A stretch of DNA of 24,805 nt from positions 1 through 24,805 of IMG/VR virus record IMGVR_UViG_3300044641_007443; one strand, given 5' to 3'. Below, piece by piece: positions 1 through 23,934 of the stretch. Both the position numbers and the translations under genes were made by a program. The DNA is from a virus. The notes under the pieces are model-generated. The model saw nothing but the letters and a program-made list of their open reading frames with translations, did no database searches and had not been told where the DNA came from. Positions within the stretch are counted from its first letter, which is position 1. Every line of letters starts with the position of its first letter.

Positions 1-922
1 GCAGCGTGATGGTGTTGGGGTTGAGGACGCCATCGTCCTCGCCCTGCCACAGACCAGACACAGCTAGCTCGGCGTTCTCCAGGTTCAGCTGCACGATGAC
101 GTTGGCGACGCGCACGTCGGGCATGGCGTTGAGCAGCGGGCCGCGGCCATAGACCTCGCCAGCAGCGACGGACCAGCGGAAGTTGATGTGCGGGCAGGCG
201 CCGGCCCCGCTGTAGGTCGTGCGCAGGATCTCGGCCTTGGGCGACGAGAGCCACACGACGTAGACATGGGTCTCGACGCGCTTGGACCAGTCGCGGAAGG
301 TCGCCTCGTTGACTTCGATCTCGTCAAGCGGACGGTTCGCCATGCGATCCATCAGCTCCATCGGGATGTTGGCGCCGGGCCACTCCTTGTCGATCAGGCC
401 GACCTGGATCTTGCGCTTGCGGAATCGCCCATCGACGGTTCCCCATGGGCCGGCATCCATTGCCATCTGCGTGAGCGGGACCGCGGTGAAACGGATGACG
501 TCGTCGCGATCGTAGTCGGCGATGAGCGATCCCGTGCCGATCCCAAGCTCCATGTAGGCTTCGTGGATCTGGCTGTCGAAGTTCGAGCGATGGAGGACCG
601 CGAAGACCTCTTCGCCGATCTCGTCAAGCTTGGCCTGGATCTCGTTGGCGTTGTCGGGGTCGATGATGCGGCCAGGCCGCAGGCGCGACCAGCGCGAGAA
701 GGTTGGCGTGAGGCCAGCCTGCAGGCGCGACGCAAACTCGTGGATGGAGGTGACAGCCGTGCTGTCGTAGAGGTTCAGCGTGTTCTTCTGGCCGTTGGTG
801 TGCGAGAAGAACCGCGCACGGTGCGGCATCGAGTACTCGTAGCACTCGTCCCAAAGCGTCTTCCATTGGTCGTGCGTCGAGTGCGCTTTCTGCGAACGCT
901 TGATGATCTCTTCGAGGTTCAT
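1..922 (-). CDS. Portal / head-tail connector protein (3' part cut by window edge)
   Basis: This gene begins with ATG at 922 and stays open to position 1, so about 307 N-terminal residues are visible and the C-terminus lies outside. Read on the minus strand it starts MNLEEIIKRSQ and contains WDECYEYSMP, a segment SRLQAGLTPTFSRWSRL and the later stretch FRWSVAAGEVYGRGP. These resemble the head-tail connector (T7 gp8-like) portals of podoviruses, which form the dodecameric ring through which DNA is packaged and to which the short tail attaches. It lies downstream of terL in the late minus-strand operon, the expected place. The opposite-strand reading frame here is only its shadow. Identification rests on pattern recognition and gene order, not a database search. 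Confidence 0.85.
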   Translation of the reverse strand, partial: MNLEEIIKRSQKAHSTHDQWKTLWDECYEYSMPHRARFFSHTNGQKNTLNLYDSTAVTSIHEFASRLQAGLTPTFSRWSRLRPGRIIDPDNANEIQAKLDEIGEEVFAVLHRSNFDSQIHEAYMELGIGTGSLIADYDRDDVIRFTAVPLTQMAMDAGPWGTVDGRFRKRKIQVGLIDKEWPGANIPMELMDRMANRPLDEIEVNEATFRDWSKRVETHVYVVWLSSPKAEILRTTYSGAGACPHINFRWSVAAGEVYGRGPLLNAMPDVRVANVIVQLNLENAELAVSGLWQGEDDGVLNPNTITL

Positions 923-1405: not shown

Positions 1406-1827
1406 CGGAACACCTCGGTCGCGCCGTGGCGCAGGAGTGCGTGGTACAGCTGCTCTGGCGTGAACGACAGGCCGCCCATGCCAAGCAGGTGCTTCACCGT
1501 GGTCACGCAATAGACCGGCCCGCGCAGCATCCACCTATAGCGTTTGATCCGATCGACACGGAGGATGCGGCCGCCACCAGCTTTCAGCACGGCGATCGTG
1601 CGATCCATCTCCTCGCCCATCGCTACGCGCACGTCGGTGTGGCCCATCAAGGGGTCGATGACGATCCATCCACCACGCGAGTAGCCAAACACCAGGACAT
1701 GACGCCAGCCCTTGCGGGCAAAGAGATGCCACCAGCGTCGCGTGCCGGGATGGAAATCGCCGAAGGCAACGTGCCAGGTCACGATGTCGAGGCCGAAGTC
1801 GCATTCGCGGAACGGCTCAGCCACCAC
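1402..1827 (-). CDS. Hypothetical protein, possible permuted papain-like fold (141 aa)
   Basis: The 141-aa protein lies between terL (its start overlaps the terL end by 11 bases) and the 66-aa gene (ATGA overlap). It contains GWRHVLVFGYSRGGWIVIDPL and later PVYCVTTVKHLLGM. The order His43, Asp59, Cys107 within beta-strand-like segments is what a circularly permuted NlpC/P60 or LRAT-like papain fold would show, and the Cys opens a helix-like segment as in such enzymes. This is inference; a purely structural role is equally possible. No signal peptide or membrane segment is visible. The operon position suggests a head or packaging-associated protein. Confidence 0.7.
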   Translation of the reverse strand: MVAEPFRECDFGLDIVTWHVAFGDFHPGTRRWWHLFARKGWRHVLVFGYSRGGWIVIDPLMGHTDVRVAMGEEMDRTIAVLKAGGGRILRVDRIKRYRWMLRGPVYCVTTVKHLLGMGGLSFTPEQLYHALLRHGATEVFR

Positions 1828-3358
1828 GACCTCGCAGCCTGCGCGTCAGGCGATCCATCACCGTGCCATGCGTGCGCGTGTTGACGACCGCGACGCTCGG
1901 CTTGGCGACGGGCGTGCGGTTGAGGAGCATGCGGCCGCCACCAAGGCCAAGGACGAGGTACTGCAAGGCGTCGTGGGGATGGCTGTAGCGGTTCTTCATC
2001 GGTCGATCGGCGGGGCGCTTGCCGCCGACGCCCTGCACCATCGGGTAGTGGTAGCCGCGGGCAAAGCCTGCACGCAGGATCGTGCAGGACGGGTCGAGCA
2101 GGAAGACCTCGAGGTCGCCGATGCGCTGGTTGAGCAGGTGCTCGACTGCCTGCTGTCGCTCCACGAAGTCGTTGGTAGGCGCGGGCTGGGCGTTGATGCC
2201 CTTGGCGCGCAGGATGTCGAAGGGCGTGCGCTCGTCGGTCTGGGCCCGGCTGTCGCCGGCCGGGTCGCCCCAGAACGCAAGCTGCATGCCGGCGAAAGGC
2301 GGCTGGGAAAGGACTGCCAGCAGCTGGTCGGCAAAGCGCTCGGCGCCCATGGATGTCGCGACGATCTCGCGCATGATCTTGAAGCGGCCCATCACGTTCT
2401 GTCCGATGATGGCCGCGGGCGTGAGCCCAAAGTCGATGCCGACGCCGACAACGTGGTTCTCCTGCGGCACAAGCTTGGAGCGCGCTACATGGCGTTCGTC
2501 GGAGAAGGTCGGATAGACCAGCGAGCCGTCCAGCGTGTAGCCAAGGCGGTTCTGGAGGTAGACGCGAATCCAGCTGCGCGTCTTGCCGGCGATCTGGTTC
2601 GAGTAGTAGTCCGGGCGCAGGTTGGGGAGGTTCTCGGCCGCGGGGTTGATCTCGTAGCCGACGATCGCGTCGCCATCCATCTTCTCGACGACGGCCTCGG
2701 GCTGGACGAAGAACCGCCAGTTCTCGGGGCGCTGCAGCGTCAGCGCGTCGACGGGGTCCATGTCCTCGGGGATCGGCGCCTCGCCGGCCAGGATGGGCCA
2801 CCAATGGTCAGGCTCCATGGCGTTGGTGTCCATGAAGATGCAGGCGCGGTAGTCCTGGCCATCAAGATCAGCAAGCTTGGGAAAGCGGCCAACGCGGCCG
2901 GTCAGCATGTCGAGGATGGCCTTGGGGATCTCCCGGGCCTCGTTGATCCACGCCCCCGTCAGCTCGAGCGACAGCAGCTTCTTGACGTCGTCTTCCCGGT
3001 CCAGGGCCAGGAAGATCACTTCCATCTCGACGTCGCCCTTGCGGATCTTGTGCGTAAAGGGCGGCGACCAGTTGAACTTCCCGAACTCGTGCTCGGGAAA
3101 CCAATCGAGCCAGGTCTTGATCGTGGTCGTGCGCAGCTCGCCCTGCGTGTTGCGGATGATGCACCAGCGGGACTGGCGCTTCTTCGACCGCCCGCTGCGC
3201 GGCATGGCAAGCGCAAGGCGCATGATCTCGATGCAGCAGGTGACGGACTTGCCGCTGCCGATCGGGCCGCGAATGCCGCGCACGAAGCTCAGATCCTTCA
3301 TGAAGTCCCGGCCCACGGGGCCAGGTGGCTTGTAGGAGATCCTGACCGGCTCGGCCAT
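1817..3358 (-). CDS. terL: Terminase large subunit
   Basis: The 513-aa protein is the packaging motor ATPase and nuclease. Walker A is GPIGSGKS at residues 31-38. The Walker B region with the catalytic acid is LTGAWINEARE at about 133-143 (Glu140). The C-terminal RNase H-like nuclease begins at GVGIDFGLTPAAIIG and includes FWGDPAGDSRA and a terminal HPHDALQYL segment. The length is normal for a two-domain TerL. Its ATG overlaps the upstream stop by one base (TGATG). It should dock on the portal encoded about 900 bases downstream and work with the TerS-like protein at 4300-4755. An antisense frame of 572 codons over the same DNA is a codon-bias shadow. Confidence 0.95.
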   Translation of the reverse strand: MAEPVRISYKPPGPVGRDFMKDLSFVRGIRGPIGSGKSVTCCIEIMRLALAMPRSGRSKKRQSRWCIIRNTQGELRTTTIKTWLDWFPEHEFGKFNWSPPFTHKIRKGDVEMEVIFLALDREDDVKKLLSLELTGAWINEAREIPKAILDMLTGRVGRFPKLADLDGQDYRACIFMDTNAMEPDHWWPILAGEAPIPEDMDPVDALTLQRPENWRFFVQPEAVVEKMDGDAIVGYEINPAAENLPNLRPDYYSNQIAGKTRSWIRVYLQNRLGYTLDGSLVYPTFSDERHVARSKLVPQENHVVGVGIDFGLTPAAIIGQNVMGRFKIMREIVATSMGAERFADQLLAVLSQPPFAGMQLAFWGDPAGDSRAQTDERTPFDILRAKGINAQPAPTNDFVERQQAVEHLLNQRIGDLEVFLLDPSCTILRAGFARGYHYPMVQGVGGKRPADRPMKNRYSHPHDALQYLVLGLGGGRMLLNRTPVAKPSVAVVNTRTHGTVMDRLTRRLRGRGG

Positions 3359-12103: not shown

Positions 12104-12117
12104 CTGCATTTTTGCAG
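12104..12117. promoter_or_regulatory. Operator palindrome O2
   Basis: CTGCA-TTTT-TGCAG is a perfect-arm copy of the motif, centred about 19 bases before the Cro-like ATG. The Cro-like gene has no clear ribosome site, so its transcript may be leaderless or start very close to the ATG, within reach of a protein bound here. Confidence 0.65.
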
Positions 12118-12129
12118 TAAACCAATGCC

Positions 12130-12366
12130 ATGTTGTCACATCCCCTCGATCTGCTCGCCACAATGGCAACAGCGCACAACGTCTCTCTCGAGAGCGCCAT
12201 GCGCTCAGCAGGCGTCGCCCGCACCACCTATCAGAGGTGGATGAAGCGGCAGACATCGCCCCGCCACGGGACAGCAGAACGCATCGCCAAGGAGATCCAA
12301 CGCCTTGGGAAGCTACAGCTGCGTAAGAAACCAGCCGCTCTGGCACAAGCTCGTCGCGGCGCTTAG
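12130..12366 (+). CDS. Cro-like HTH regulator (78 aa)
   Basis: The 78-aa basic protein carries an HTH (LATMATAHNVSLESAMRSAG, then VARTTYQRWMKRQTSP) and a Lys/Arg/Ala-rich tail. Its place, first plus-strand gene divergent from the repressor, is that of Cro. It would compete for the same TGCA-type operators to switch to lytic growth. No Shine-Dalgarno sequence is visible before ATG 12130. The next HTH gene begins inside its last 62 bases. Confidence 0.8.
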   Translation: MLSHPLDLLATMATAHNVSLESAMRSAGVARTTYQRWMKRQTSPRHGTAERIAKEIQRLGKLQLRKKPAALAQARRGA

Positions 12367-12748
12367 CGCCGAACGCAAGCGCCAGGGATGGTCACGATGG
12401 GACCTCGAGGACAAGTGCGGCTTCCATCGCGGATCGCTTGCCATGTGGGAGACGTCCTTGCGTCCACCAACGGCATTCAACCTCTGCATCTGGCTGGAGT
12501 TCCTTGGTCGTGAGCTCGAGGTTGTCGGGGCGACGCCAACGGGTGATCACCGCCAGCTCGAGCTTCCACTCGAAGTACAAGTCGCGTCGCACGACGATCG
12601 AAGGCATCACCTTCGCAAGCAAGGGCGAAGCCCTGCGATACGTCGACCTCAAGCGACTCGAGCAAGCGGGACACATCAGGAACCTCCGGCTCCAAGTGGC
12701 ATACCCGCTGGCAGTCAACGGCTTCAAGCTCTGCACCTACGTCGCTGA
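12305..12748 (+). CDS. Second HTH (XRE-type) protein, unusual 3' extension
   Basis: The recognisable part is LWHKLVAALSAERKRQGWSR, DLEDKCGFHRGSLAMWE and FNLCIWLEFLGRELEVVG, an XRE-type HTH of about 80 residues. The only good start is TTG 12305, with AAGGAGA nine bases upstream, inside the Cro-like gene. The frame stays open to 12748, so the last ~65 codons run in another frame under the DUF1064 gene and look like shadow sequence (Arg/His/Pro-rich). Either the overlap is genuine, or a frameshift joins HTH to DUF1064, or a base is missing. Probable role: early regulator. Confidence 0.6.
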   Translation: MGSYSCVRNQPLWHKLVAALSAERKRQGWSRWDLEDKCGFHRGSLAMWETSLRPPTAFNLCIWLEFLGRELEVVGATPTGDHRQLELPLEVQVASHDDRRHHLRKQGRSPAIRRPQATRASGTHQEPPAPSGIPAGSQRLQALHLRR

Positions 12749-12890
12749 CTTCGTCTACGAAGAAGCCGGGACGACAATCGTCGAAGACTTCAAGGGCATC
12801 AAGACGGCAATCTTTAGGCTCAAGGCCAAGATGATGAAGGCCCTGCTTGGAATCGAACTGAGAATCACGACTGGGAGAAAGAAGCGATGA
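12543..12890 (+). CDS. DUF1064 family, predicted PD-(D/E)XK nuclease (115 aa)
   Basis: The protein reads HSKYKSRRTTIEGITFASKG, ALRYVDLKRLEQAGHIRNLR, LQVAYPLAVNGFK, TYVADFVYEEAGTTIVEDFK then IFRLKAKMMKALLGIELRI. This closely fits DUF1064, a small phage family with a restriction-endonuclease-like core (Glu in SKGEA, VADF, VED-F-K). Holliday-junction-type or other structure-specific cleavage is the usual proposal. GTG 12543 gives the family's usual length; GTG 12510 with GGAG upstream is an alternative. It is ATGA-coupled to the winged-helix gene. Confidence 0.8.
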   Translation: MITASSSFHSKYKSRRTTIEGITFASKGEALRYVDLKRLEQAGHIRNLRLQVAYPLAVNGFKLCTYVADFVYEEAGTTIVEDFKGIKTAIFRLKAKMMKALLGIELRITTGRKKR

Positions 12891-13333
12891 AGACTGTCGC
12901 CATTCCCATGGGTCTTGTAGGGGACCGCACGTCGACGTCGCTGCACATCCATGTCGCAGCCTTGCTGGCCCTAGAAGCCAGTTCCTACGGCTGGGTGCGC
13001 ATCTCGCAGCGTTCGATCTCCGAGGCAACTGGCGCAAGCCAGCAAGACATCGTGGATGCTCTGCGCATCCTGCGCGACAAGAACTACCTTGCCGTCGACA
13101 AGGACGAAGACGGCATGTTCTATCGGCTCCTCTGGTTTCGCACGACACAACAAGAGGAGCCCAAGAAGTATCGCTGGGTCTACGTTCGCCGCCTTGGCGA
13201 CAAAGGCAAAGGCGGATACTTGCGCATCAACGGCGGCCCAGACGATCGCGACGAGCTGAAGAACTGGCTGGTCGGCATGGGCTACGACCTGCTTCGGCTT
13301 CACGACGAGCCTCCGCAAAAGGCCCCGTCGTGA
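12887..13333 (+). CDS. Winged-helix DNA-binding protein (148 aa)
   Basis: The 148-aa product begins MKTVAIPMGLVGD and has a winged-helix segment at about residues 20-80 (VAALLALEASSYGWVRISQR, SISEATGASQQDIVDALRIL, KNYLAVDKDEDG), then a basic strand-rich tail. It resembles small phage replication or transcription regulators. No other replication initiator is recognisable in the window, so that role is possible, but it is inference. ATG 12887 overlaps the DUF1064 stop. The last bases of the gene form one arm of a terminator hairpin. Confidence 0.7.
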   Translation: MKTVAIPMGLVGDRTSTSLHIHVAALLALEASSYGWVRISQRSISEATGASQQDIVDALRILRDKNYLAVDKDEDGMFYRLLWFRTTQQEEPKKYRWVYVRRLGDKGKGGYLRINGGPDDRDELKNWLVGMGYDLLRLHDEPPQKAPS

Positions 13334-13341
13334 TTTTTTTT
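13301..13341 (+). terminator. Terminator overlapping the 3' end of the winged-helix gene
   Basis: CACGACG (13301-13307) pairs with CGTCGTG (13326-13332), with an inner GCC/GGC stem, followed by eight Ts at 13334-13341. The right arm includes the TG of the TGA stop codon, so the coding end doubles as the terminator. Confidence 0.85.
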
Positions 13342-13351
13342 GCCTTGAGCG

Positions 13352-13365
13352 CTGCAATTTTGCAC
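13352..13365. promoter_or_regulatory. Operator-like palindrome before the recombination operon
   Basis: CTGCA-ATTT-TGCAC matches the 14-bp motif at 9 of 10 arm positions, with the same centre (ATTT) as the copy at 7857-7870. As there, it lies between a terminator and the ribosome site (AGGAGGGA) of the next operon. Confidence 0.6.
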
Positions 13366-13385
13366 CTTCAACAGGAGGGAACCTG

Positions 13386-14282
13386 ATGGGCTACACGATC
13401 AGCGCAACCGATGCGCGCCGGCTGATGCGCGGCGACGGCATCAATCTCTGGAAGGAGAAGAAGGGACTCGCGACGCCAGAGGACCTGTCTGGCGTTCTGC
13501 GCGTCCAGCTCGGCCTCGTCACCGAAGCCTTCAACTTGTCCTGGTGGCAGCGCAACCACGACAACGAGAAGTTCGGCGTTTCCGCAAACGTGACCTTCGA
13601 CGCGATGCCCGCCTTCACGCCCGATGCCGATCGCCGGCTGAAGGCTGGTGGCATTGGCGGCGTCTGCGAGTACGTCAACACAGACCGCGTCTGGCAGACC
13701 TGCACGCCTGATGGCGTTGTCTGGTGCAAGGAAGCCATCCGCCAACCTCTCGGCCTCATCGAGGCCAAGCACACTCGGCCAATCGGCGATGGCAACGAGC
13801 CATACTCTGTCATCCAGGCGAACTACTGGCAGTTCGTCCACCAGATGATGGTCACCGGCTTCAAGCAGACCTTCGTCTCGGTGCTCTACGGCAACGACGA
13901 GTGGCGTCCATTCGTCGTGCAGCGCAACGAGGATGACATCGCCACGCTGCTCGGCGCCGAGCTCATGTTCCTGCGCGAGCTCGAAGGCGACACGCCTCCC
14001 GGCATTGTCTGGGACCTTCCAGACGATCGACCGATCCCGGGCGTGCCGACGCGCAAGCTGACCACGGCGGACGTCGAGAGAGCCAACTGGGCCAGCGACT
14101 TCATCGCGGCCGCAAGCGACTTCGTCTTGAACTACGACAGCGACAAGCGGCTCGACGCCGCCAAGAAGGCCCTGCGTGGGTTCTTGCCCGAGGATGCCGT
14201 GAAGATCGAGGCATTCGGGGTCCGCGTGAACCGCACCCAGCGCGGCATCGTCATCAGCCAACTCAAGGAGAAGGCGGCATGA
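13386..14282 (+). CDS. YqaJ-like viral recombinase / exonuclease
   Basis: The 298-aa protein is a PD-(D/E)XK exonuclease of the YqaJ/lambda Exo type. Signatures are LGLVTEAFNLSWW with Glu47, TCTPDGVV with Asp109, LGLIEAKHT with Glu126 and Lys128, and the ANYWQFVHQMMVTG helix at 145-158. It resects dsDNA 5' ends to leave ssDNA for the annealing protein encoded two genes later. Start ATG 13386 follows AGGAGGGA. It opens a long coupled operon running to the integrase, and the next gene overlaps by ATGA. Confidence 0.9.
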   Translation: MGYTISATDARRLMRGDGINLWKEKKGLATPEDLSGVLRVQLGLVTEAFNLSWWQRNHDNEKFGVSANVTFDAMPAFTPDADRRLKAGGIGGVCEYVNTDRVWQTCTPDGVVWCKEAIRQPLGLIEAKHTRPIGDGNEPYSVIQANYWQFVHQMMVTGFKQTFVSVLYGNDEWRPFVVQRNEDDIATLLGAELMFLRELEGDTPPGIVWDLPDDRPIPGVPTRKLTTADVERANWASDFIAAASDFVLNYDSDKRLDAAKKALRGFLPEDAVKIEAFGVRVNRTQRGIVISQLKEKAA

Positions 14283-14674
14283 AGTCCATCGACATCAGCA
14301 TCAAGCAAGCCCACGAGATGGTGGCGCTGCTACGCGACAGCCTGCCCTTCATCAGGGGGGTCAACTTCAACATCAGGTCCGGCGAGAAGACGGACAACCA
14401 GGAGCGATTCTACATCTCGCTGTTTGCCGACCTCGAGGAGGCGTCGCCCTTGTCTGGCGCCACCTACGGCATCCATGGGTCGGGCTACACCGACGAGGGG
14501 ATGGGCAAGATCGTCGCCAGGTTCCGCAGCGACTACCTCCGTGCGCTGGAGGTGATGGTCAACAAGCACATCGGCGAGAACACCATCAACCGACTGCTTC
14601 AGGAGTACGAGGACAAGAACCTCGACTTCATCGACGGCCCCACCGTGTCGGCGCTCGCCAAGGAGGTCGCATGA
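14279..14674 (+). CDS. Hypothetical protein in recombination operon (131 aa)
   Basis: The 131-aa protein (MKSIDISIKQAHEMVALLRD, PFIRGVNFNIRSGEKTDNQE, GIHGSGYTDEGMGKIVARF) is soluble, with mixed alpha/beta character. It is coupled by ATGA to both the exonuclease and the annealing-protein genes. That position suggests an accessory of the recombination pair, but I recognise no family and see no catalytic motif. Confidence 0.75.
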   Translation: MKSIDISIKQAHEMVALLRDSLPFIRGVNFNIRSGEKTDNQERFYISLFADLEEASPLSGATYGIHGSGYTDEGMGKIVARFRSDYLRALEVMVNKHIGENTINRLLQEYEDKNLDFIDGPTVSALAKEVA

Positions 14675-15357
14675 GCAAGGAAACCAACCTCCTTCTGTGG
14701 GACAGCCTGTCGAAGACGGACCCGGCCCACACCAAGTCCTTCACTCGCGGCGGCGGCTTCTCCGGCACGGCCATCAAGCCCATGTGGGCGGTGTGGCGCG
14801 CCACCAAGGAGTTCGGTCCCTGCGGCATCGGCTGGGGCTGGGACGTCCTCGACACCAAGATCGCCGAAGGCATGGTCTTCTGCCTTGTGCGCGTCTGGTA
14901 CGTCAACGCCGGCATGCGCTACGAGACCGGCGCGCAATGGGGCGGCACCGAAATCCGCACGCCGCGCAAGGACGGCTCAAGCCGCGCCGACGACGAGTCC
15001 TTCAAGAAGTCCGTCACCGACGGCATCACGAAGTGCCTCAGCTACATCGGCATAGGCGGCGACGTCCATCTCGGCCAGTTCGACGACACCAAGTACGTCT
15101 CCGAGGCCAAGGCCGACTTCGAGATCGAGGCCAAGGCATCGGCCGTCAGCAAGCAGCGCCGCCTTGACGAGTCGTTCGTGACCGGCGCCATCGCCGCGCT
15201 CAAGGGGGTCAAGTCCGCCGACGAGCTCATGTCCCTTGGCCGCGTTCATGCGCCACGGGTCAAGGAGATCCGCGAGCGGAACCCCGAGCTGCTCGAGGAC
15301 TACGCATCGACCGGCCGGGAGATGAAGGAGAAGTTCTCCAGCAAGGAGGCTGCGTGA
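14671..15357 (+). CDS. Single-strand annealing protein (Rad52/Sak-like)
   Basis: The 228-aa protein has the layout of phage Rad52/Sak-type annealing proteins: KPMWAVWRATKEFGPCGIGW, a basic strand region VRVWYVNAGMRYETGAQWGG, then the hallmark DDESFKKSVTDGITKCLSYI followed by GGDVHLGQFDDTKYV. The C-terminal third is a charged helical tail, likely for SSB or exonuclease contact. It would anneal the ssDNA made by the YqaJ exonuclease, aided by SSB-2 two genes downstream. ATG 14671 and GTG 15354 overlaps lock it into the operon. An Erf-like assignment is the alternative. Confidence 0.75.
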   Translation: MSKETNLLLWDSLSKTDPAHTKSFTRGGGFSGTAIKPMWAVWRATKEFGPCGIGWGWDVLDTKIAEGMVFCLVRVWYVNAGMRYETGAQWGGTEIRTPRKDGSSRADDESFKKSVTDGITKCLSYIGIGGDVHLGQFDDTKYVSEAKADFEIEAKASAVSKQRRLDESFVTGAIAALKGVKSADELMSLGRVHAPRVKEIRERNPELLEDYASTGREMKEKFSSKEAA

Positions 15358-15659
15358 TCCAGGTCCAGATCATCCCCGCGGATGGCGACGAGCTTGGGGA
15401 GGAGGCCATGCTCGCTCGCGAATGCGTCGAGACGTCGGTGCGCTTTGCAGCGGTGATGCTCGAGGAGTACCGCAGCCCGGGGCTCGTCATCTACGCGATG
15501 CTCACGTCGATCGCCTGGGTCTCGCGCTTCAAGCGACCCGTCGGCATGAGCGACGAGGAAGCCATCAACGACATCGTTCAAGGGATTCGAGGCGTCTTCC
15601 AGAACGTGGAGATGCGCGACGTCACGGCCAACTACCACTCAGAGGGAGGCAAGGCATGA
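15354..15659 (+). CDS. Hypothetical protein, GTG start (101 aa)
   Basis: It starts with GTG 15354, overlapping the previous stop as GTGA, and ends by overlapping the SSB-2 ATG. The 101-aa acidic helical product (GEEAMLARECVETSVRFAAV, SPGLVIYAMLTSIAWVSRF) has one moderately hydrophobic helix, more likely buried than membrane-spanning. No family is recognised. It belongs by position to the recombination module. Confidence 0.7.
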   Translation: MIQVQIIPADGDELGEEAMLARECVETSVRFAAVMLEEYRSPGLVIYAMLTSIAWVSRFKRPVGMSDEEAINDIVQGIRGVFQNVEMRDVTANYHSEGGKA

Positions 15660-16057
15660 ACACCGTCTATCTCATCGGCAACGTCGGCAAGGACGCCGAG
15701 TTCAAGGCGGATGTCGGCAGCGGACTGCTTCGTTTCTCGCTTGCGACCAGCGAGCGCTACACGAAGAAGGACGGCAGCAAGGGCGAGTCCACGACCTGGC
15801 ACAACATCGTCATGTGGGGAGAGCGCGGCAAGGCGCTCGCCAACGTCGCGAAGAAGGGCCAGATGATGATGGTCGTCGGCTCCATCAAGACGCGCCAGTA
15901 CGAGAAGGATGGCCAGAAGCGCACGGCGACGGAAGTCGATGCTCGCGACTGCGTCGCCCTCTTCGCCAACAAGAACGCCCAGGTCGATGCGCCCGCCGAC
16001 AAGCCGGCCAAGCCGGACGCCGGCTCGTCGATCGACGACGACGAAATCCCGTTCTGA
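15656..16057 (+). CDS. ssb: Single-stranded DNA-binding protein, copy 2
   Basis: The 133-aa SSB reads MNTVYLIGNVGKDAEFKADV, LRFSLATSERYTKKDG, WHNIVMWGERGKALANVAKK, MMMVVGSIKTRQYEKDGQKR, then an Ala/Pro/Lys linker and the acidic tip DDDEIPF. It is clearly an OB-fold SSB, diverged from SSB-1 (7367-7804). It is co-transcribed with the exonuclease and annealing protein, so it likely serves recombination. The start at ATG 15656 makes an ATGA overlap. Confidence 0.95.
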   Translation: MNTVYLIGNVGKDAEFKADVGSGLLRFSLATSERYTKKDGSKGESTTWHNIVMWGERGKALANVAKKGQMMMVVGSIKTRQYEKDGQKRTATEVDARDCVALFANKNAQVDAPADKPAKPDAGSSIDDDEIPF

Positions 16058-16067
16058 GGAGGGTGAC

Positions 16068-16358
16068 ATGGAGCTCCTCACCGGCAAGCAGCGCAAGGAA
16101 GAGGCCCTCGACTTGTTCGAGGGGCGGCAGGATGCATGGCTCGCCAACGCCAGGGACATGGCGGCGCAGCTTGCTCGCGAGAACGGCAAGGTGACCAGCG
16201 ATGACATCTGGCTCACCCTGCCGCCGCCGCGCAGCGCGCACCCATCGGTCATGGGTGCCTTGTTCAGGGACAATCGGTTCAGGCTGGTCGACTTCACCCT
16301 GTCGAAGCGGCCGCGTGCCAATGCGCGTCGCATTGGCGTCTACGAGCTGACGTCCTGA
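16068..16358 (+). CDS. Hypothetical protein (96 aa)
   Basis: From ATG 16068, after GAGGAGGGTGAC, the 96-aa product reads MELLTGKQRKEEALDLFEGR, ENGKVTSDDIWLTLPPP, SVMGALFRDNRFRLV and NARRIGVYELTS. The pattern (helices, then VTSDD, then GALFR..RF, then a terminal VYEL strand) looks like a small winged-helix domain seen in many phage early operons. The function is not established. The next gene starts on its stop codon (TGATG). Confidence 0.7.
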   Translation: MELLTGKQRKEEALDLFEGRQDAWLANARDMAAQLARENGKVTSDDIWLTLPPPRSAHPSVMGALFRDNRFRLVDFTLSKRPRANARRIGVYELTS

Positions 16359-16591
16359 TGCCTCCGAGGGCCTGGCCGAAGCTGCCAGATCCGCTTTCGA
16401 CGCCGATCGCGTTGCGAGCGGCCGCGAGGGCGCGCATCACGGAAGCCATGCTGCATTCAGAGGATTCATGGGACCGACTGCACCACATGCAGGTCGCCAC
16501 CGAATACGAAAGGAAGGCGGATCTTGCGCAACGCATCATCCAGCAGAACGTCGCTTCTCTCGACGCACGCTCACCCGAACATCCCGAGTGA
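16358..16591 (+). CDS. Hypothetical helical protein (77 aa)
   Basis: The 77-aa product starts at ATG 16358, one base overlapping the previous stop. It is helical and charged (RAAARARITEAMLHSEDSWD, VATEYERKADLAQRIIQQNV). No family is recognised. It may overlap the next gene, whose start is uncertain. Confidence 0.6.
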   Translation: MPPRAWPKLPDPLSTPIALRAAARARITEAMLHSEDSWDRLHHMQVATEYERKADLAQRIIQQNVASLDARSPEHPE

Positions 16592-16610
16592 GTACATCGA
16601 CTTCCTTGTC

Positions 16611-16775
16611 ATGGTGCGCCCGACGCTCAAGGCAGCCGCGGAGGAAGCGGAACTCTGGCAGCGCGAACATCGGCTGATGCTCCTCGAGCAAGCAGACCGT
16701 CTCATTGCCGACATGCAGCGGCGATGGAGCATGCACATCCGGTTCCCCGTCAAGACGCTAGGGAGCGTGCAATGA
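16611..16775 (+). CDS. Small helical hypothetical protein (54 aa, start uncertain)
   Basis: The frame is read from ATG 16611 (MVRPTLKAAAEEAELWQREH, then MLLEQADRLIADMQRRWSM). A longer version from TTG 16524, with AAGGAAGG upstream, would give 83 aa and overlap the 77-aa gene by 68 bases. The residues just before 16611 (SEYIDFLV) look protein-like, which favours the longer form somewhat. Its stop overlaps the next ATG. Helical, coiled-coil-like; function unknown. Confidence 0.5.
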   Translation: MVRPTLKAAAEEAELWQREHRLMLLEQADRLIADMQRRWSMHIRFPVKTLGSVQ

Positions 16776-17161
16776 GCATCTGCAAAGTCTGCAACGGCAT
16801 GGGCCAGCACGAGATCGAAGGCTTCTCGTTCCCATACAGGACACAGATCGTCGATTGCTTGGACTGCGATGGCGATGGCTCCGATCCTCGCTGGGTGGAG
16901 AAGATGAGCCTCGACGAGCTGGTCGAGCATCTTGGCAAGGAGGAGAGCGACGAGCTTCGCGAGGAAGCTGCGCGCCGTCTCATCAAGTACCACAGAGCCG
17001 AGCAGATCGTGTCTGGCCAGCTCATGGAGCTCGAGGCCAGGAACAAGGTGATGGAAGAGGCCCTGCGAAAGATCAGGGACCAAGGTGGCGACGTCGTCGA
17101 GAAGTGGTCTTCGCAGGTTGCGGATCAGGCTCTTCTGGTCGGCGCTTCCGCACCTTTTTGA
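16772..17161 (+). CDS. DnaJ-type zinc-finger-containing protein (129 aa)
   Basis: The N-terminus carries two CxxCxGxG-like motifs, CKVCNGMG (Cys4, Cys7) and CLDCDGDG (Cys29, Cys32), the repeat used by DnaJ-type zinc ribbons. There is no J-domain. The rest is a long charged helix (SLDELVEHLGKEESDELREE, LMELEARNKVMEEALRKIRD). It is likely a zinc-binding early phage protein that contacts nucleic acid or another protein. ATG 16772 overlaps the upstream stop. Function unknown. Confidence 0.75.
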   Translation: MSICKVCNGMGQHEIEGFSFPYRTQIVDCLDCDGDGSDPRWVEKMSLDELVEHLGKEESDELREEAARRLIKYHRAEQIVSGQLMELEARNKVMEEALRKIRDQGGDVVEKWSSQVADQALLVGASAPF

Positions 17162-17168
17162 GTCGAGC

Positions 17169-17219
17169 ATGGAGACCGGGATCGCGCTTCTGAAGGCGGT
17201 GCAGGAGGCCAAGCCATGA
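17169..17219 (+). CDS. Possible 16-aa mini-ORF coupled to next gene
   Basis: ATG 17169 encodes METGIALLKAVQEAKP and its TGA overlaps the ATG of the next gene (17216). The frame is open upstream to 17052, so a GTG start further back could give about 44 residues. The overlap matches the local style, but evidence for expression is weak. Confidence 0.25.
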   Translation: METGIALLKAVQEAKP

Positions 17220-17587
17220 CCCTCTACAACATCGAGCCCTCCGGCATGACCGAGCATCATGCGCGTGGGAAGATGTGCTGGCGAGACACATCCAAGACAT
17301 GCGTCGGATCAAGCTGCATGGCATGGCAATGGACCCAGCTTGAGAACGAGTACGCATGGGTTCGCCTTGGCCGCAAGCCAATCGACGGCGAGTGGACGAT
17401 GTTCACGAAAGCCACGCCGATGGTCGTTGGTGCGCTGAAGTTTGTTCCATGGAAGCGCCCAATCCATTTCAGCCAGAGGCATCTCAGGCTTGGCCGCTGC
17501 GGCGCCGTGCCGAGCATGGCGCGAACGGCATCGATCGAGCCAAGCATGATGCCGCACGATGAGACGCAAGAGGGCGGCCATGAGTGA
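17216..17587 (+). CDS. Small Cys-containing hypothetical protein (123 aa)
   Basis: The N-terminal third, MTLYNIEPSGMTEHHARGKM followed by CWRDTSKTCVGSSCMAWQW, has Cys21, Cys29 and Cys34. It looks like small phage proteins with a C..C..CMAWxW zinc-site pattern. The C-terminal part is less ordered (SMARTASIEPSMMPHDE). It sits just upstream of the excisionase-like gene and overlaps it by 8 bases. Function unknown. Confidence 0.65.
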   Translation: MTLYNIEPSGMTEHHARGKMCWRDTSKTCVGSSCMAWQWTQLENEYAWVRLGRKPIDGEWTMFTKATPMVVGALKFVPWKRPIHFSQRHLRLGRCGAVPSMARTASIEPSMMPHDETQEGGHE

Positions 17588-18002
17588 CCTGCCACAGCTC
17601 TACACGCTCGATGACGTCGCGAGGTCGATGAAGTTGCGCAAGGACACCATCCTGCGCCACCTGGCCCGCCACGACATCCCGCGGATCGGCAGCGGCCGCG
17701 GCATGCGGTTGACACGCGAGGCCTACGACCTGTTGATTCGCTGCCTATGCTCAAGCTCCTGCCCCCGGGGAAGCGATCGCCCTTCTGGTCCGTCCGCGGA
17801 CGGCACGGAGGACGGTTGCTCGAAGTCAGCACTCGCACGACTGACGCAGGGCTGGCGAAACAGCGGTACCGAGAGCTCCTCAGGACACTCGGCGCCAAGG
17901 AGCCGGGCCCGGCGCACACCGTCGGCTTCGCCGAGGCCGCCCGGGCCTACCTCGCCTTCCGCGACCTTGACGATCGCCAGCGCGCCGACATCCAGCGATT
18001 GA
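17580..18002 (+). CDS. Excisionase-like HTH protein overlapping the integrase start
   Basis: From ATG 17580 the first ~58 residues form a MerR/AlpA-type HTH (LPQLYTLDDVARSMKLRKDT, ILRHLARHDIPRIGSGRGMR, LTREAYDLLI), as in excisionases and directionality factors. The frame then stays open to 18002, giving a Ser/Arg/Pro-rich tail that overlaps the first 85 codons of the integrase in another frame. The tail looks disordered and may be shadow sequence, but no earlier stop exists. Position next to int supports an excisionase role. Confidence 0.65.
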   Translation: MSDLPQLYTLDDVARSMKLRKDTILRHLARHDIPRIGSGRGMRLTREAYDLLIRCLCSSSCPRGSDRPSGPSADGTEDGCSKSALARLTQGWRNSGTESSSGHSAPRSRARRTPSASPRPPGPTSPSATLTIASAPTSSD

Positions 18003-18751
18003 GCCGGGAACTGGGCGACACGCCTTGCGCCCAGGTCACGCAGGCGCAGCTGGTCGATGTCGCCAACCGCCTCTTCCCCGCCGGCAAGGCCAGCAGCAAG
18101 AACCGGCTGGTCATCACCCCGGCCTCGGCCATCCTCCACTACGCCTCCCAGCAGGGCTGGTGCCCATGGCGACGGATCTCCCGGTTCCGGGAGGCCAAGC
18201 CGGTCACCCGAGCCCTCTCCCAGCCAGACGCCCATCGCCTCATGGCGGCCGCGGCCGGCGAGGCCCGCGCCTTGCTCGAGGTGCTATTCGGGACCGGGTT
18301 GAGGATCTCGGACGTCCTTGCCCTGCGCTGGGACCAGATCGACATGGGGAATTGCACTCTGCGGTTGCGAATCGGCAAGACGCAGGAGGACCGGGTCCTG
18401 CCGCTTTCCCCGCTTGCCATGCAGGGCCTTCACAGACTGCCCAGGAAGCCCCAGGAGCGACTTTGGAGCGTCAGGGATAGATGGGCCGCCTACGACATGC
18501 TTTCGCCCGCCAGAGAGCGTTCTGGCGTCGATTTCACCCCCCACATGGCAAGGCACTCGGTCGGCAGCTGGCTCAACGACGCCGGCGCCGGCCTCAAGAC
18601 CATCATGGCGACCCTCGGCCACGCCGATCCCAAGTCCTCCATGCGCTACCAGGACGCCGACGTCGAGACGATCCGGCGGGCATGGGGGCGCGTGGGGGCT
18701 GTGGGGGCGCGTGGGGGAAACCGCGGCTCAAGGCAGAAGGCAAAGGCCTAG
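17747..18751 (+). CDS. int: Tyrosine-family phage integrase
   Basis: The 334-aa protein has all catalytic residues: Arg186 in GTGLRISDVLALRW, Lys211 in GKTQEDR, His266-x-x-Arg269 in TPHMARHS, His292 in TLGHAD and Tyr301 in SSMRYQDAD. The N-terminal ~60 residues form an arm-type-DNA-binding region and residues ~60-140 a core-binding SAM-like domain. It integrates the phage at a tRNA-Thr(GGT) gene, judging by the attP just downstream. Its extreme C-terminal codons are themselves built of GTGGGGG repeats (18682-18717). ATG 17747 is chosen because the protein aligns with integrase N-termini from there. Confidence 0.95.
   Translation: MLKLLPPGKRSPFWSVRGRHGGRLLEVSTRTTDAGLAKQRYRELLRTLGAKEPGPAHTVGFAEAARAYLAFRDLDDRQRADIQRLSRELGDTPCAQVTQAQLVDVANRLFPAGKASSKNRLVITPASAILHYASQQGWCPWRRISRFREAKPVTRALSQPDAHRLMAAAAGEARALLEVLFGTGLRISDVLALRWDQIDMGNCTLRLRIGKTQEDRVLPLSPLAMQGLHRLPRKPQERLWSVRDRWAAYDMLSPARERSGVDFTPHMARHSVGSWLNDAGAGLKTIMATLGHADPKSSMRYQDADVETIRRAWGRVGAVGARGGNRGSRQKAKA
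18682..18717 (+). repeat. Integrase arm-type repeats, left cluster
   Basis: ATGGGGG at 18682, then GTGGGGG at 18692, 18701 and 18711, spaced 9-10 bp in the same orientation, inside the last codons of int. Spacing near one helical turn and placement beside the attP core suggest binding sites for the integrase N-terminal domain. Confidence 0.6.
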
Positions 18752-18767
18752 CACGTCCCGTCCCTGC

Positions 18768-18814
18768 CCTTGGTAAGGACGGGGTCGAGTGTTCAATTCA
18801 CTTCGGCGGCACCA
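18768..18814 (+). other. attP: attP core: 3' half of tRNA-Thr(GGT)
   Basis: The sequence fits canonical tRNA numbering from position 30 to CCA: anticodon loop TTGGTAA (18770-18776, anticodon GGT), stem 3' half GGACG, 5-nt variable loop GGGTC, T-stem GAGTG/CACTT with loop TTCAATT, acceptor half CGGCGGC, then ACCA. The 5' side stops matching at position 29 (C against A at 41), so only a fragment is present. That is the identity segment that restores the host tRNA on integration. Confidence 0.85.
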
Positions 18815-18856
18815 TTTCCCTAGGGAAACGCATGGAATCGGCCTGCAAAAAGGCCG
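18815..18856. other. Palindrome and hairpin beside attP
   Basis: TTTCCC-TA-GGGAAA (18815-18828) abuts the tRNA CCA. CGGCC/GGCCG (18839-18856) encloses an A-rich loop. They could be integrase, excisionase or host-factor sites, or the terminator of the restored tRNA gene. Confidence 0.4.
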
Positions 18857-18863
18857 GATGCCT

Positions 18864-18888
18864 GTGGGGAGTGTGGGGGATGTGGGGG
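18864..18888 (+). repeat. Integrase arm-type repeats, right cluster
   Basis: GTGGGGA at 18864, GTGGGGG at 18873 and GTGGGGG at 18882, with 9-bp spacing, in the same orientation as the left cluster. They lie about 50 bp beyond the core, making a two-armed attP. Confidence 0.6.
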
Positions 18889-18942
18889 AGAAGCGGAGAC
18901 CGGCAGGCTGAATAGCGGCCTCCGCCCCCTCGGGAGCAGACA

Positions 18943-18965
18943 GGACAGGGGGAGGAAACCTGTCC
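18943..18965. terminator. Hairpin between convergent int and endolysin genes
   Basis: GGACAGG (18943-18949) pairs with CCTGTCC (18959-18965), with a 9-base loop, just downstream of the endolysin stop. There is no good T-run on either strand, so it is only a possible late-operon terminator. Confidence 0.3.
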
Positions 18966-18971
18966 GTTCCC

Positions 18972-19502
18972 TCATGCTGTTGCGCGGCCGCGCTCGAAGA
19001 GCCGCTGCGATTCGTCTCGGACCTGCTCGACGCGCCTACCCCAGCCCTTGCCAAAGGTCGGCCAGGTGTCGAGCCGCTGGAGGAACTCCAGTCGAAGATC
19101 GCTCATGCGGCCGATCAGGTACAGGGGGTCGGCATAGCGTATGGCCGCAAGGGTCTTGGGACCGATCGACCCGTCGGCCGGGACGCTGGCCGCCTCCTGG
19201 AGGATCTTGGCCGCCCTGCCCGAGCCGCTGTTGACCGCGATGTCAAAGGCGCAATGGTCGACGCCCGGGGGCAACTCGTCGGCCTGCACCCTCTCCCAGT
19301 AGAGCTTCCGGTAGATCGCATCGCGATGCTCGGCTGGCATGTTGCGCAGCTCGTCCTTGGTCGCCGGCCTGCCGAGCCAGTTCGAGTAGGTCCTCAAGGT
19401 CACGCCCTGCATGGTGGCGCCGCCGGGATCGAGAGGATGGTCGCTCCACCCGCCCTCGTGCATGAGGACGAGCTTCAGGCTATCGTCGAACATCTCGCGC
19501 AT
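18972..19502 (-). CDS. Endolysin, GH108-type N-acetylmuramidase
   Basis: The 176-aa protein (from ATG 19502; GTG 19505 is one codon longer) starts MREMFDDSLKLVLMHEGGWS and continues DHPLDPGGATMQGVT, the GH108 signature with catalytic Glu16. The middle has YRKLYWERVQADELPPGVD and FDIAVNSGSGRAAKILQ. The C-terminal half (DGSIGPKTLAAI) is a peptidoglycan-binding domain of the type paired with GH108. No signal peptide is visible, so it should need the holin just upstream. TGATG overlap with that gene. It is the last gene of the lysis block. Confidence 0.9.
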   Translation of the reverse strand: MREMFDDSLKLVLMHEGGWSDHPLDPGGATMQGVTLRTYSNWLGRPATKDELRNMPAEHRDAIYRKLYWERVQADELPPGVDHCAFDIAVNSGSGRAAKILQEAASVPADGSIGPKTLAAIRYADPLYLIGRMSDLRLEFLQRLDTWPTFGKGWGRRVEQVRDESQRLFERGRATA

Positions 19503-20020
19503 CACTTCTTCTCCGCAAGCATGGCTGTCTTTTGCTGGCTCGAAGACGACGAGCCGAAATAGTAGGCAATCACCTGCTCGGCCTTTGCCGACACGAAGCC
19601 GATGAGCGTCCCGACTGTCGTTGCCATCAACGGGTCCTTCATTCCCTCGACGACGCCCAGCAGGACCATGAAGACCGTCGCCATGAAGCCGCAGACGATG
19701 ACGCCAGCAAGGATCCGCGGCATCCAGTCCCTGACCTGGGCTTCGCGCTTGCGAGCGCTGTCGCGGTCTCCCGCGGCGATCTTGTCGAGGTCGATGTCGA
19801 GTTCGCGCATGCGGATGGCGAAGTCGTTGTCGGCGACCTTGAGCGCCAGCAGCTGCTCGGGCGTCGCCTGCTTGAGGGCCTTCTCGACGTCACGCTCGCT
19901 GGCGTCGGGCGCAAGGCCAAGGGCATTGCCGATGACCTGCATGGCCATGCCCCCGATGGGGCCGCCGATCGCCGACGCAATCGTCGGGGCGACGGCGCCA
20001 ACGATCTTCAGGATGTCCAT
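19502..20020 (-). CDS. Holin, 3TM/GTA-type
   Basis: I start at ATG 20020 (TGATG overlap); the frame is open much further upstream but that part is shadow. The 172-aa product has a Gly/Ala-rich N-terminus (IVGAVAPTIASAIGGPIGGM), a charged helix, and two strong membrane segments, RILAGVIVCGFMATVFMVLL and about residues 138-158 (LMATTVGTLIGFV). It ends with YYFGSSSSSQQKTAMLAEKK, typical of the holin family linked to gene-transfer-agent release. It lets the endolysin cross the inner membrane. Confidence 0.8.
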   Translation of the reverse strand: MDILKIVGAVAPTIASAIGGPIGGMAMQVIGNALGLAPDASERDVEKALKQATPEQLLALKVADNDFAIRMRELDIDLDKIAAGDRDSARKREAQVRDWMPRILAGVIVCGFMATVFMVLLGVVEGMKDPLMATTVGTLIGFVSAKAEQVIAYYFGSSSSSQQKTAMLAEKK

Positions 20021-20250
20021 CACTTCCTCCTCAGCATCAGGATCACGGAGATCTTCTGGCGCAGCCGGATGAGGTCGTTGTCGAGCATGCGGATGCGATC
20101 GATGAGCGCGATCAGGGTCGTGCTGGCGTCGGAAAGGACAGGCTTGACGATCGACGTTGCCCATTTCCAGACGTAGTAGATGAGGTAGGCCATGCCCACG
20201 GCCGCCACGATTGGGAAGCCGTACTGTCCAATCGCGCCAGCCAGGTCCAT
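20020..20250 (-). CDS. Small membrane protein, holin-like (76 aa), paralogue of next gene
   Basis: The N-terminal membrane segment (GFPIVAAVGMAYLIYYVWKW, residues 11-30) is followed by an amphipathic helix with heptads (LSDASTTLIALIDRIRMLDN) and a basic end (MLRRK). GFPI at a membrane start followed by a helix resembles BhlA/UviB-type holin-like proteins. It is recognisably related to the protein encoded just upstream (20250-20537). It may be an antiholin or auxiliary holin. Overlaps on both sides are TGATG. Confidence 0.65.
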   Translation of the reverse strand: MDLAGAIGQYGFPIVAAVGMAYLIYYVWKWATSIVKPVLSDASTTLIALIDRIRMLDNDLIRLRQKISVILMLRRK

Positions 20251-20537
20251 CAGTCCTTCCTCGCGTCTTGCTTGCCGTCCGCACGCGCCACGCGATCGAT
20301 ATCCGGCTCGACATCCAGCGCAGTCGATATGAGAAGGTCGATGCGCAGGATGTCGTGGTTCATCGTGGCGACACGGTTGTCTAGCGCAGCAATGATTCCG
20401 GTGAGATTGCGTATGCTGCTGTCTACGCCGGCCAGGATGAACTTGAGCGTCAGGAAGACGAAGCTCCCTGCCCCGATGGCCGATGCGATCGGGAAGCCAA
20501 CGTCAGCGATCAGCCTAAACGCCGCATCGATCGCCAT
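20250..20537 (-). CDS. Small membrane protein, holin-like (95 aa)
   Basis: It has one membrane segment (VGFPIASAIGAGSFVFLTLK, about residues 13-32), then an amphipathic helix (NLTGIIAALDNRVATMNHDI) and an acidic/basic tail (DIDRVARADGKQDARKD). It shares GFPI-A-A-G and the following D-x-L/I-R helix pattern with the 76-aa protein, so the two look like a tandem duplication. Lysis role inferred from position. Confidence 0.65.
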   Translation of the reverse strand: MAIDAAFRLIADVGFPIASAIGAGSFVFLTLKFILAGVDSSIRNLTGIIAALDNRVATMNHDILRIDLLISTALDVEPDIDRVARADGKQDARKD

Positions 20538-21020: not shown

Positions 21021-21562
21021 GGCGGCCACCCTGCGGTCGCGTCGTAGCTGATGACAGCTTGAGGGTCCGTCAGGGCGTCGATCGCCGCGACATGCGTCTT
21101 CTCGGCGGCAAAGCACGACCTGACATGCGCGCCGACCGCATCGGCCGCCGCGATCAGCTCCAAGGCGCCAAGCGCCGCGAAGCCGTCTGCGAACTTCCAG
21201 TCCGTCGAGTAGGCGGCATTCTCCTTCGCCATGATCCTGGCGCCTATGAGAACGGTGCGCGTGCGCTCGTCGCTAGAGAACCGCTTGCCGCCGACCTCCA
21301 CGCCGGCGTGCTCGTACTCCCAGCGCTTCGCCGCGATCTCAGATTTCTTCTGCTGCTTGAGCTGGTCGAGCGGATGCGGCACGCCTGGCGCGCTGTAGTA
21401 GCGGCCATCGACGACCGGAGGCTCCGGCAGCTCGACAGCGCCGAACTCCAGCCGCTCGCTCGGCGTCAGGAGACGCAGCCAGTTGTCTGGATACTGGATG
21501 CCAGCCATGTCGAACGGCTGGTCGATCATGACGGTCTGGCCGTCTGGAAGAGAAAACCTCAT
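21017..21562 (-). CDS. DUF4376-like / tail-fibre-assembly-type protein (181 aa)
   Basis: The 181-aa protein has an N-terminal tail-related region (MRFSLPDGQTVMIDQPFD, TPSERLEFGAVELPEPPV) and a C-terminal DUF4376-like helical domain: LKQQKKSEIAAKRWEYEHAG, VEVGGKRFSSDERTRTVLIG, WKFADGFAALGALELIAAAD, then AHVRSCFAAE. These proteins are often encoded right after tail fibres and help fold or attach them. It couples by ATGA to the large tail protein upstream and to the coiled-coil gene downstream. Confidence 0.75.
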   Translation of the reverse strand: MRFSLPDGQTVMIDQPFDMAGIQYPDNWLRLLTPSERLEFGAVELPEPPVVDGRYYSAPGVPHPLDQLKQQKKSEIAAKRWEYEHAGVEVGGKRFSSDERTRTVLIGARIMAKENAAYSTDWKFADGFAALGALELIAAADAVGAHVRSCFAAEKTHVAAIDALTDPQAVISYDATAGWPP

Positions 21563-23934
21563 CGTGCCCTCGCGTACTTGAATGGAGCTTCGGCAAACGC
21601 AGCGAATACAAATGTCACACCAGACCCGTTCAAGCCTGATGCGGACACTCGTATTTTGAAGCCATTGGAAAGAACATCAATGGCACGAACGGAAGTGGCA
21701 TAGTTTTCGGCGGCAGCGTCTCCAGCCTCCAGACCACCACCCATTTCGTTGAATGTTTCTCTGACAGTATCGTAGATTCGCCAATCAAGATTTGCGGCCG
21801 TTGCGTCCTTTATCATAATCCAGCGGGGCCTAAATCCGCACCACACAAACGGTCCGTCCGCGCTGGCATTGCCAGTATAGCTACTAAACTTGGAATATCC
21901 GTCAATCTCAGCCCACAGATACGCCACAAAAGAAAATGTATTTCCATTTGTTTCGCTGTTAGTTCCAACACTAAAAACGCTGCTAGTTGGTGCGGTACTA
22001 TTCCACATGGTAGAAGCAGCAGCAAAACCTGCTGTTGAGTTTAAATACATATATCCACTTGCTGGCGAAGCATTTTGATTAACGTGATAGGAGGGCCAGC
22101 CGTTTCCTGTATCCAATCTTTTCACGGTCATAAACTTTGGAATCGCGCCCAAAGAATGTGAAATTGTTCGATTAGTTCCATTTCCGGTATAGGTAACAAT
22201 ATCAAATCCCGGCGTTATACCCTCTTTCCAAGCCCAGTCAACATATGTAGCTGTGTTTGTATTAAGTTGAGCCAGAGAACCAACGGTGTAGCCGTTGCTA
22301 TTGAAAGCCGTCAATCCTGTAGTTTCTGTTGTCTCTCCGGTTGTCGTATTGCTTTCAATTTGTTTTTGAACCCCGCGTACTGAGTCATAAAGCCCATGAT
22401 CTGTCGCCGCGCTGCGGCTCTTGATCCACACGAGGTCCGGCTGGAAGCCCAGCGAAGACACGCTTGCCGTCGCGCCCGTGCCAGTACGCAACGTGGCGTC
22501 CATGTAGAGCGATGGCTTCTTGATCGTCGGGACAGAAAGGTTCGCGGTGTTCAGCGCCTTGAAGCCGGTGGGCGGGGTGTAGCTGAAGGCGCGCTGACCA
22601 AAGTTGGCGCGGCAAGTAACTGTTGACGGGGCGCCGTAGCCCGCCATGTACGGGAACCATGTCGTGCCGGTTAGGCTGGTCCAACGCGGGTCGGTGTTCG
22701 TCGCAGGGTTGGCGGTGCCGCTGGAATTGAACCACGTTCCGTTCTTGCCGACCCACATGGATCCGTTGTCCATGTCCACCGCCACCATGATGATGTCGTT
22801 GGCTGCTGGTTGGCTGGCTGCGGTCCAATTCGTGCCAGCAAGTACAGCTTGGCTAGTGCCGTACTGAACAACGCCACCATTGAACGAATTGAGCCACGAC
22901 CCGAACTGGTAAGTGCGCGTCTCCGCGCTTGAGGCTCCGGTCGTGTTGACCGAGGCGTTGTTGGCAATTCCAAGACCCGTGCCGTAACCAAGCGCGGACA
23001 CCGCGACTTCCCAGTACCACTTCCCCGTTGCAGGAAGTCCAACCGTAGCTCGTATGGCGTGGACATCGGCAGCCGGAACAGCCGCCATGTTGGCCTCGCT
23101 GACCGTAACCGTGCCTTTGTCGATTGGAGACCACACCGGATAGTTGTTCGTCGGCGTGTCGGTCATCTGGTCGAACGTCGTGCCAGCCGTCACCGAGATG
23201 CCGCTGGTCGTGAAGTTGTTGGAGTTGCCCGACGTGTCCTTCACGATCGTCGTGGTCGTCGTTGCGTCCTCGAACTCATGCAGCGAGCCCAGCGTCCCGT
23301 AGGTTCCGGTGTACGCCTTTGGCACCCACACGCCCGTGGTGGCGTCGGTCTGGCCGAACGACGCCGGCGTAAGCTGCTGGCCGTCGATGTAATGGAGCTT
23401 CGCGAGGTGCGCGTCGAGGTATCCGAGCCCGCTGTTCCCGCCGATGTAGTTCACCCGCGCATTAGCGCCGAGATAGGTGTGGCTGTAGTTCAGCGCTGGC
23501 GGCGAGTTGGTCGAGAACGACGTGAGCTCGGTGCCGTTCGCGTAGATGCGGACACGGTTCGCCGCCGTGGCTTGCGTCGTGTCGATCGCGACGACGATGT
23601 GATACCAGGCGCTCGGGTCTCGGAAGACAGCCGTCGTGTCTAGGCGATATTGGATGGTGGTGACCACCTCCAGCACGATGAACTGGTCGGCGCCTGTAAA
23701 CCCGAAGTAGAAGTAGTTTGAGCCGATGTTGTAGGTGCCGAACACCGCCTGACCAGTTCCAAGCTGACCGCGCTTTACCCAGAAACTGAACGTCGCTTTC
23801 TGCGCGCTCCCCGCGGTCGCATTGGTGCGCGCCGCGTTAGCGCTGTTCGACGCACGAAAACGCAGCGAGTTGGCGATCTGGTAGCCAGCGCCAGACGCCA
23901 GCAACAGCGGGTTGGAGGAACCTGGAACGATCAT
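21559..23934 (-). CDS. Large tail/adhesin protein: LamG, SPRY-like and DUF7483-like domains
   Basis: The 791-aa protein, ATG 23934, starts with a LamG/concanavalin-like fold, about residues 20-200 (ATFSFWVKRGQ, AWYHIVVAIDTT, RIYANGTE, AKLHYIDGQQLTP). A SPRY/B30.2-like domain follows, about 300-460 (GKWYWEVAVSALGYGTGLGI, NDIIMVAVDMDNGSMWVGKN). A C-terminal DUF7483-like region from about 465 contains two related repeats: FQPDLVWIKS...LYDSVRG and FRPRWIMIKD...IYDTVRE. Probably a receptor- or glycan-binding tail component. The C-terminal third is much lower in GC than the rest (37-47% in sampled 60-base lines against 70%), indicating exchange. Confidence 0.85.
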   Translation of the reverse strand: MIVPGSSNPLLLASGAGYQIANSLRFRASNSANAARTNATAGSAQKATFSFWVKRGQLGTGQAVFGTYNIGSNYFYFGFTGADQFIVLEVVTTIQYRLDTTAVFRDPSAWYHIVVAIDTTQATAANRVRIYANGTELTSFSTNSPPALNYSHTYLGANARVNYIGGNSGLGYLDAHLAKLHYIDGQQLTPASFGQTDATTGVWVPKAYTGTYGTLGSLHEFEDATTTTTIVKDTSGNSNNFTTSGISVTAGTTFDQMTDTPTNNYPVWSPIDKGTVTVSEANMAAVPAADVHAIRATVGLPATGKWYWEVAVSALGYGTGLGIANNASVNTTGASSAETRTYQFGSWLNSFNGGVVQYGTSQAVLAGTNWTAASQPAANDIIMVAVDMDNGSMWVGKNGTWFNSSGTANPATNTDPRWTSLTGTTWFPYMAGYGAPSTVTCRANFGQRAFSYTPPTGFKALNTANLSVPTIKKPSLYMDATLRTGTGATASVSSLGFQPDLVWIKSRSAATDHGLYDSVRGVQKQIESNTTTGETTETTGLTAFNSNGYTVGSLAQLNTNTATYVDWAWKEGITPGFDIVTYTGNGTNRTISHSLGAIPKFMTVKRLDTGNGWPSYHVNQNASPASGYMYLNSTAGFAAASTMWNSTAPTSSVFSVGTNSETNGNTFSFVAYLWAEIDGYSKFSSYTGNASADGPFVWCGFRPRWIMIKDATAANLDWRIYDTVRETFNEMGGGLEAGDAAAENYATSVRAIDVLSNGFKIRVSASGLNGSGVTFVFAAFAEAPFKYARAR

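Follow-up and report, generated by a model that had tools for sequence, protein, structure and literature searches.

A tRNA-Thr(GGT) identity segment beside a tyrosine integrase gene very probably forms the core of an intact attP in an uncultivated phage

An attachment core matching tRNA-Thr(GGT)

The 47 bases at 18768-18814 (+ strand) of the window, by which we mean the whole 24,805-base IMG/VR record IMGVR_UViG_3300044641_007443, are almost certainly the core of an intact attP targeting tRNA-Thr(GGT), carried by a temperate phage in non-integrated form (or, less likely, by a tandem prophage). A sequence-only reading of the same DNA had proposed an intact attP for this tRNA, and the exact tRNA match, the adjoining integrase gene and the same segment boundary in related phages bear it out. 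The evidence is read from identity, gene order, flanking repeats, restoration of the tRNA gene in silico and conservation in relatives.

The segment, CCTTGGTAAGGACGGGGTCGAGTGTTCAATTCACTTCGGCGGCACCA, matches canonical positions 30-76 of tRNA-Thr(GGT) exactly, including CCA, and holds the parts which that reading had described: the loop TTGGTAA (18770-18776), a 5-nt variable region GGGTC, the T-arm GAGTG-TTCAATT-CACTT and the acceptor strand CGGCGGC, followed by ACCA. Pairing fails at position 29, also as described, the 5' side TGCCC pairing with GGACG except at that position, where C lies opposite A41. No complete tRNA gene was found in the window with ARAGORN. Just upstream, the 9-mer AGCACGTCC at 18750-18758 equals tRNA-Thr positions 23-31 and stands farther from the loop than in the tRNA, by 11 nt; it may be left over from a longer identity, or match by chance.

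Genomic context of the site

The identity segment starts 16 nt past the end of a tyrosine integrase gene (17747..18751, + strand, 334 aa; PF00589 7.8e-25, phrog_1 3.6e-40), and a glycosyl hydrolase 108 type endolysin gene (18972..19505, - strand; PF05838 2.8e-27, PF09374 3.5e-8, phrog_315) converges on 18768-18814 from the opposite side, so that the segment has phage genes on both flanks, as had been claimed. Next to the endolysin gene is an open-reading frame with a small phrog_1544 protein (19502..20314, - strand), which is holin-like by position only, and near the right edge lies a virion structural or tail fibre protein gene (21559..23934, - strand; phrog_19943 4.4e-183, PF24299). The placing of both window edges in late genes also holds: the right edge adjoins tail genes, and at the left a head-tail connector gene (2..922, - strand; phrog_332 1.5e-49) runs off the edge. 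A large terminase subunit at 1817..3358 (- strand; 52% to Pelagibacter phage EXVC031P) marks the phage identity of the DNA. Neither sigma-70 promoter nor terminator candidates were found near the attachment site.

The record is classed as linear, no identical end repeats were found in its 24,805 bases, and it is a linear fragment and not a complete genome. A related record, IMGVR_UViG_3300008448_000438, aligns to window positions 1-17509 with gaps and mostly at 91-98% identity, the alignment stopping before the integrase gene, and adds connector, major head and tail genes past the left edge of the window. This extension gives the phage the order attP, lysis, tail, then head, terminase, replication, int and attP again, so in an integrated copy int would lie at one end and the lysis genes at the other. 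Two genes for single-stranded-DNA-binding proteins occur in the one fragment (7229-7804, TIGR00621 6.1e-28; 15575-16054, TIGR00621 3.3e-26), and a 384-aa open-reading frame at 5425-6579 has a C-terminal part which, judged by eye, is a candidate nucleotide-binding (SLOG/DUF2493-like) domain.

Integrase and flanking repeats

By eye, in an alignment with two related integrases (L129 and L128), the catalytic residues R186, K211, H266, R269, H292 and Y301 are conserved. Within the 3' end of int are three direct GTGGGGG repeats (18692-18698, 18701-18707 and 18711-18717, + strand), and on the right of the core lie GTGGGG at 18864-18869 and GTGGGGG at 18873-18879 and 18882-18888 (+ strand). The window has five forward GTGGGGG in all, every one within 18692-18888; counting one GTGGGGA as well, the core has three repeats to its left and three to its right, spaced 9-10 nt, at offsets of -81/-72/-62 and +91/+100/+109 relative to the middle of the loop. 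Among 20,000 Markov sequences trained on the window GTGGGGG occurred at most twice per 350 nt, and sequences from a model trained on the repeat region itself never reached five. The repeats flank the core as arm-type integrase sites would, and we regard them as putative sites of this kind. A 16-mer of these repeats had 33 matching stretches in viral contigs.

The probable host tRNA gene

Scanned for exact copies of the 47-mer, 84,980 genomes of bacteria and archaea gave two matches, both in alphaproteobacterial MAGs (NZ_JAEULY010000029.1, of Phreatobacter, and VGDA01000311.1). Each is the 3' part of an intact 75-nt tRNA-Thr(GGT) gene as called by ARAGORN, with the identity between phage and host running 1-2 nt past CCA, so the full gene ending in the segment, which the sequence-only reading had named as support for an attB, does exist. 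An exact match of 47 nt that is confined to tRNA-Thr genes is not a chance one. Read by eye, the gene neighbourhood is alike in both MAGs, with a sterol-desaturase-like open-reading frame upstream of the tRNA gene, and since no recognisable phage genes lie beside tRNA-Thr(GGT) in the fetched DNA of either, both sites look like empty attB.

Taking tRNA identity as the sole basis for assignment, the host group is likely to be alphaproteobacteria near Phreatobacter. An integrated copy of this phage, or a close integrase, was not found in 297 genomes of the order (matches of only ~30%), the terminase had no match in 12 genomes of the family, and in 385 sampled genomes of the class the identity segment was never duplicated and occurred as single copies only. 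The site links an uncultivated phage with a probable group of hosts, and provides a bacterial group for which few genetic tools exist with a complete attP and the integrase beside it.

Proposed integration and comparison with known systems

From general knowledge of tyrosine integrases, the N-terminal domain of the protein would contact the G-rich repeats to the left and right as its arm sites, and the catalytic domain would bind inverted core sites around the anticodon loop, predicted at 18765-18769 (TGCCC) and 18777-18781 (GGACG), with CGTCC and GGACG as the attB counterparts. The anticodon loop is one of the recognised crossover sublocations in tRNA genes. We place the probable overlap region at this loop, TTGGTAA (18770..18776, + strand), because of the inverted repeat around the attB loop and the same boundary in other phages. 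If the site is active, strand exchange across these 7 bp would recombine attP with the host tRNA-Thr(GGT) gene (attB), producing an attL in which the host 5' part and the phage 3' copy restore the tRNA, with the lysis genes downstream, and an attR which joins the int side to the displaced host 3' part. Joining the short flanks in silico, with one of the host loci (L003), gave a complete tRNA-Thr(GGT) at attL; attR and attP had none.

Tyrosine-integrase elements at tRNA genes which restore the 3' end form a class described in Islander, by the rule that the element restores the tRNA and leaves a displaced fragment (PMC4383910), and reportedly also by Williams in 2002. These elements share with the window the tRNA 3' identity block, the integrase beside attP, the restored tRNA at one end and the displaced fragment at the other, and we see no essential difference between them. 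It is well supported that the attP is ordinary in kind and follows a known strategy, and very likely that the phage is temperate.

Lysogeny could instead depend on a phage tRNA, a short core disrupting the host tRNA which the phage then replaces, as in mycobacteriophage Fionnbharth, with Roseobacter phage CRP-810 looking similar. Fionnbharth likewise has a tyrosine integrase and an attB inside a tRNA gene (PMC10865867), and CRP-810 is an alphaproteobacterial phage which integrates within tRNA-Thr (PMC11288001) and whose integrase is a distant match (26.7%) to that of the window. However, CRP-810 has a 13-bp core and its own tRNA-Thr gene (PMC11288001), against 47 bp here and a 24,805-base window free of tRNA genes, and the core of ~10 bp in Fionnbharth destroys the tRNA, which a phage tRNA complements (PMC10865867), whereas the 47-nt identity here runs through CCA and would restore it. 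As the in-silico attL restores the tRNA and the window is without a tRNA gene, we reject this mode of lysogeny, which is barely conceivable for this phage, and return to integration with tRNA restoration. A phage tRNA-Thr gene located beyond the window would leave that restoration as it is.

Related phages and the form of the DNA

The exact 47-mer had no match in viral contigs, and the integrase sequence queried singly had none either; their place was taken by a 19-mer of the core and by a three-row integrase alignment, the latter finding ten viral loci, eight of them further ones. The 19-mer hit two contigs of one phage type, IMGVR_UViG_3300037419_001302 (L124/L128) and IMGVR_UViG_3300037467_000938, with integrases 42-44% identical to that of the window, an attP ~30 nt past int that starts at the same tRNA-Thr(GGT) base, and a phrog_1544 gene beyond it. 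They differ from the window in having two repeats per side (TAGGG at -60/-48 and TTGGGA at +137/+148) rather than three GTGGGG, and in the T-arm sequence of the host tRNA. A further record, IMGVR_UViG_3300037722_000699, shows the same arrangement, with a 35% identical integrase beside a tRNA-Thr(GGT) segment. Prophages of this type had been proposed as a place to look; the phages with related integrases carry an attP with the same boundary, and one viral record (L127), seemingly an isolate genome from its number, starts within a tRNA-Thr(GGT) that looks intact, with lysis and tail genes following directly. It looks like the integrated form (attL) of another phage, and its layout is what the attP of the window predicts for attL.

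These relatives bear on whether 18768-18814 might be the degraded relic of a tRNA, dating from a past recombination and no longer used for attachment. The 5' side is not tRNA, and the 9-mer at 18750-18758 hints at a longer former identity now interrupted by 11 nt; yet 47 nt without a mismatch, an integrase that is intact and keeps its catalytic residues, repeats on both flanks and a boundary shared by independent phages make decay extremely improbable.

The sequence-only reading had also taken the DNA for a free phage genome. This holds in so far as the attP is unsplit, which rules out one prophage integrated by itself; virion DNA, a circle excised from the host and a tandem copy would look alike, and the contig therefore derives either from phage DNA that is not integrated (as virion or excised circle) or, with lower probability, from a tandem prophage. 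Two tandem prophages, or a concatemer, would have an internal junction identical in sequence to attP, and the contig ends fall short of host DNA. Tandem prophages are the rarer state, however, no host DNA was recognised in the contig or in the close relative G001, and the related 51-kb phage IMGVR_UViG_3300037419_001302 (51,229 bases) has 127-bp identical ends, owing to which it is apparently circular, crossing its own attP. A tandem arrangement is thus very improbable, and we favour virion or excised DNA. The 127-bp ends of that phage stop 1 nt past its attP identity boundary. We considered them as an assembly branch from mixed free and integrated copies and rejected this, co-occurring phage variants diverging at the same base.

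Differing integrases and targets

A comparison with IMGVR_UViG_3300044613_000484 (L170) shows that the integrase-attP unit differs between phages with nearly identical lysis-region genes. Positions 4649-5650 of this record are 97% identical to window 19527-20528, the holin-like gene region, while its 6275-7508 carries, in the same slot and beside a diverged endolysin, a different integrase and a tRNA-Met(CAT)-like 3' segment, which lies on the opposite strand relative to int. Related phages with another identity segment had been named as evidence against the attP; a close relative does have tRNA-Met, but its integrase differs as well, and since both change together the site travels with the integrase, which supports the attP reading.

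Among the phages with related integrases, IMGVR_UViG_3300030098_002135 (L155) has its integrase beside a tRNA-Ser(GCT)-like 3' segment (isotype assigned by eye), and apart from this locus, IMGVR_UViG_3300037722_000699 and L154, the remaining five of the eight further loci showed no tRNA segment beside int. In the loci with tRNA segments, along with two more (L148 and L149), the core is flanked left and right by G-rich repeats, lying roughly from -64 to -48 and from +126 to +161. It is possible, if doubtful, that the integrases of this group cut the anticodon loop and read G-rich arms, and that members have moved between isotypes (Thr, Ser) and changed whether the 3' or the 5' half is kept (tRNA-Val, in L154); if true, the group could reveal how integrases come to switch targets. 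In L154 (IMGVR_UViG_3300027706_000020, ~4000-4055), where no sigma-70 promoter candidate was found, the attP carries the 5' half of tRNA-Val(CAC) and not the 3' half, from position 1 through the anticodon loop, as confirmed against intact genes. G-rich repeats lie on both sides of that core, and integration there would put phage DNA upstream of the host tRNA.
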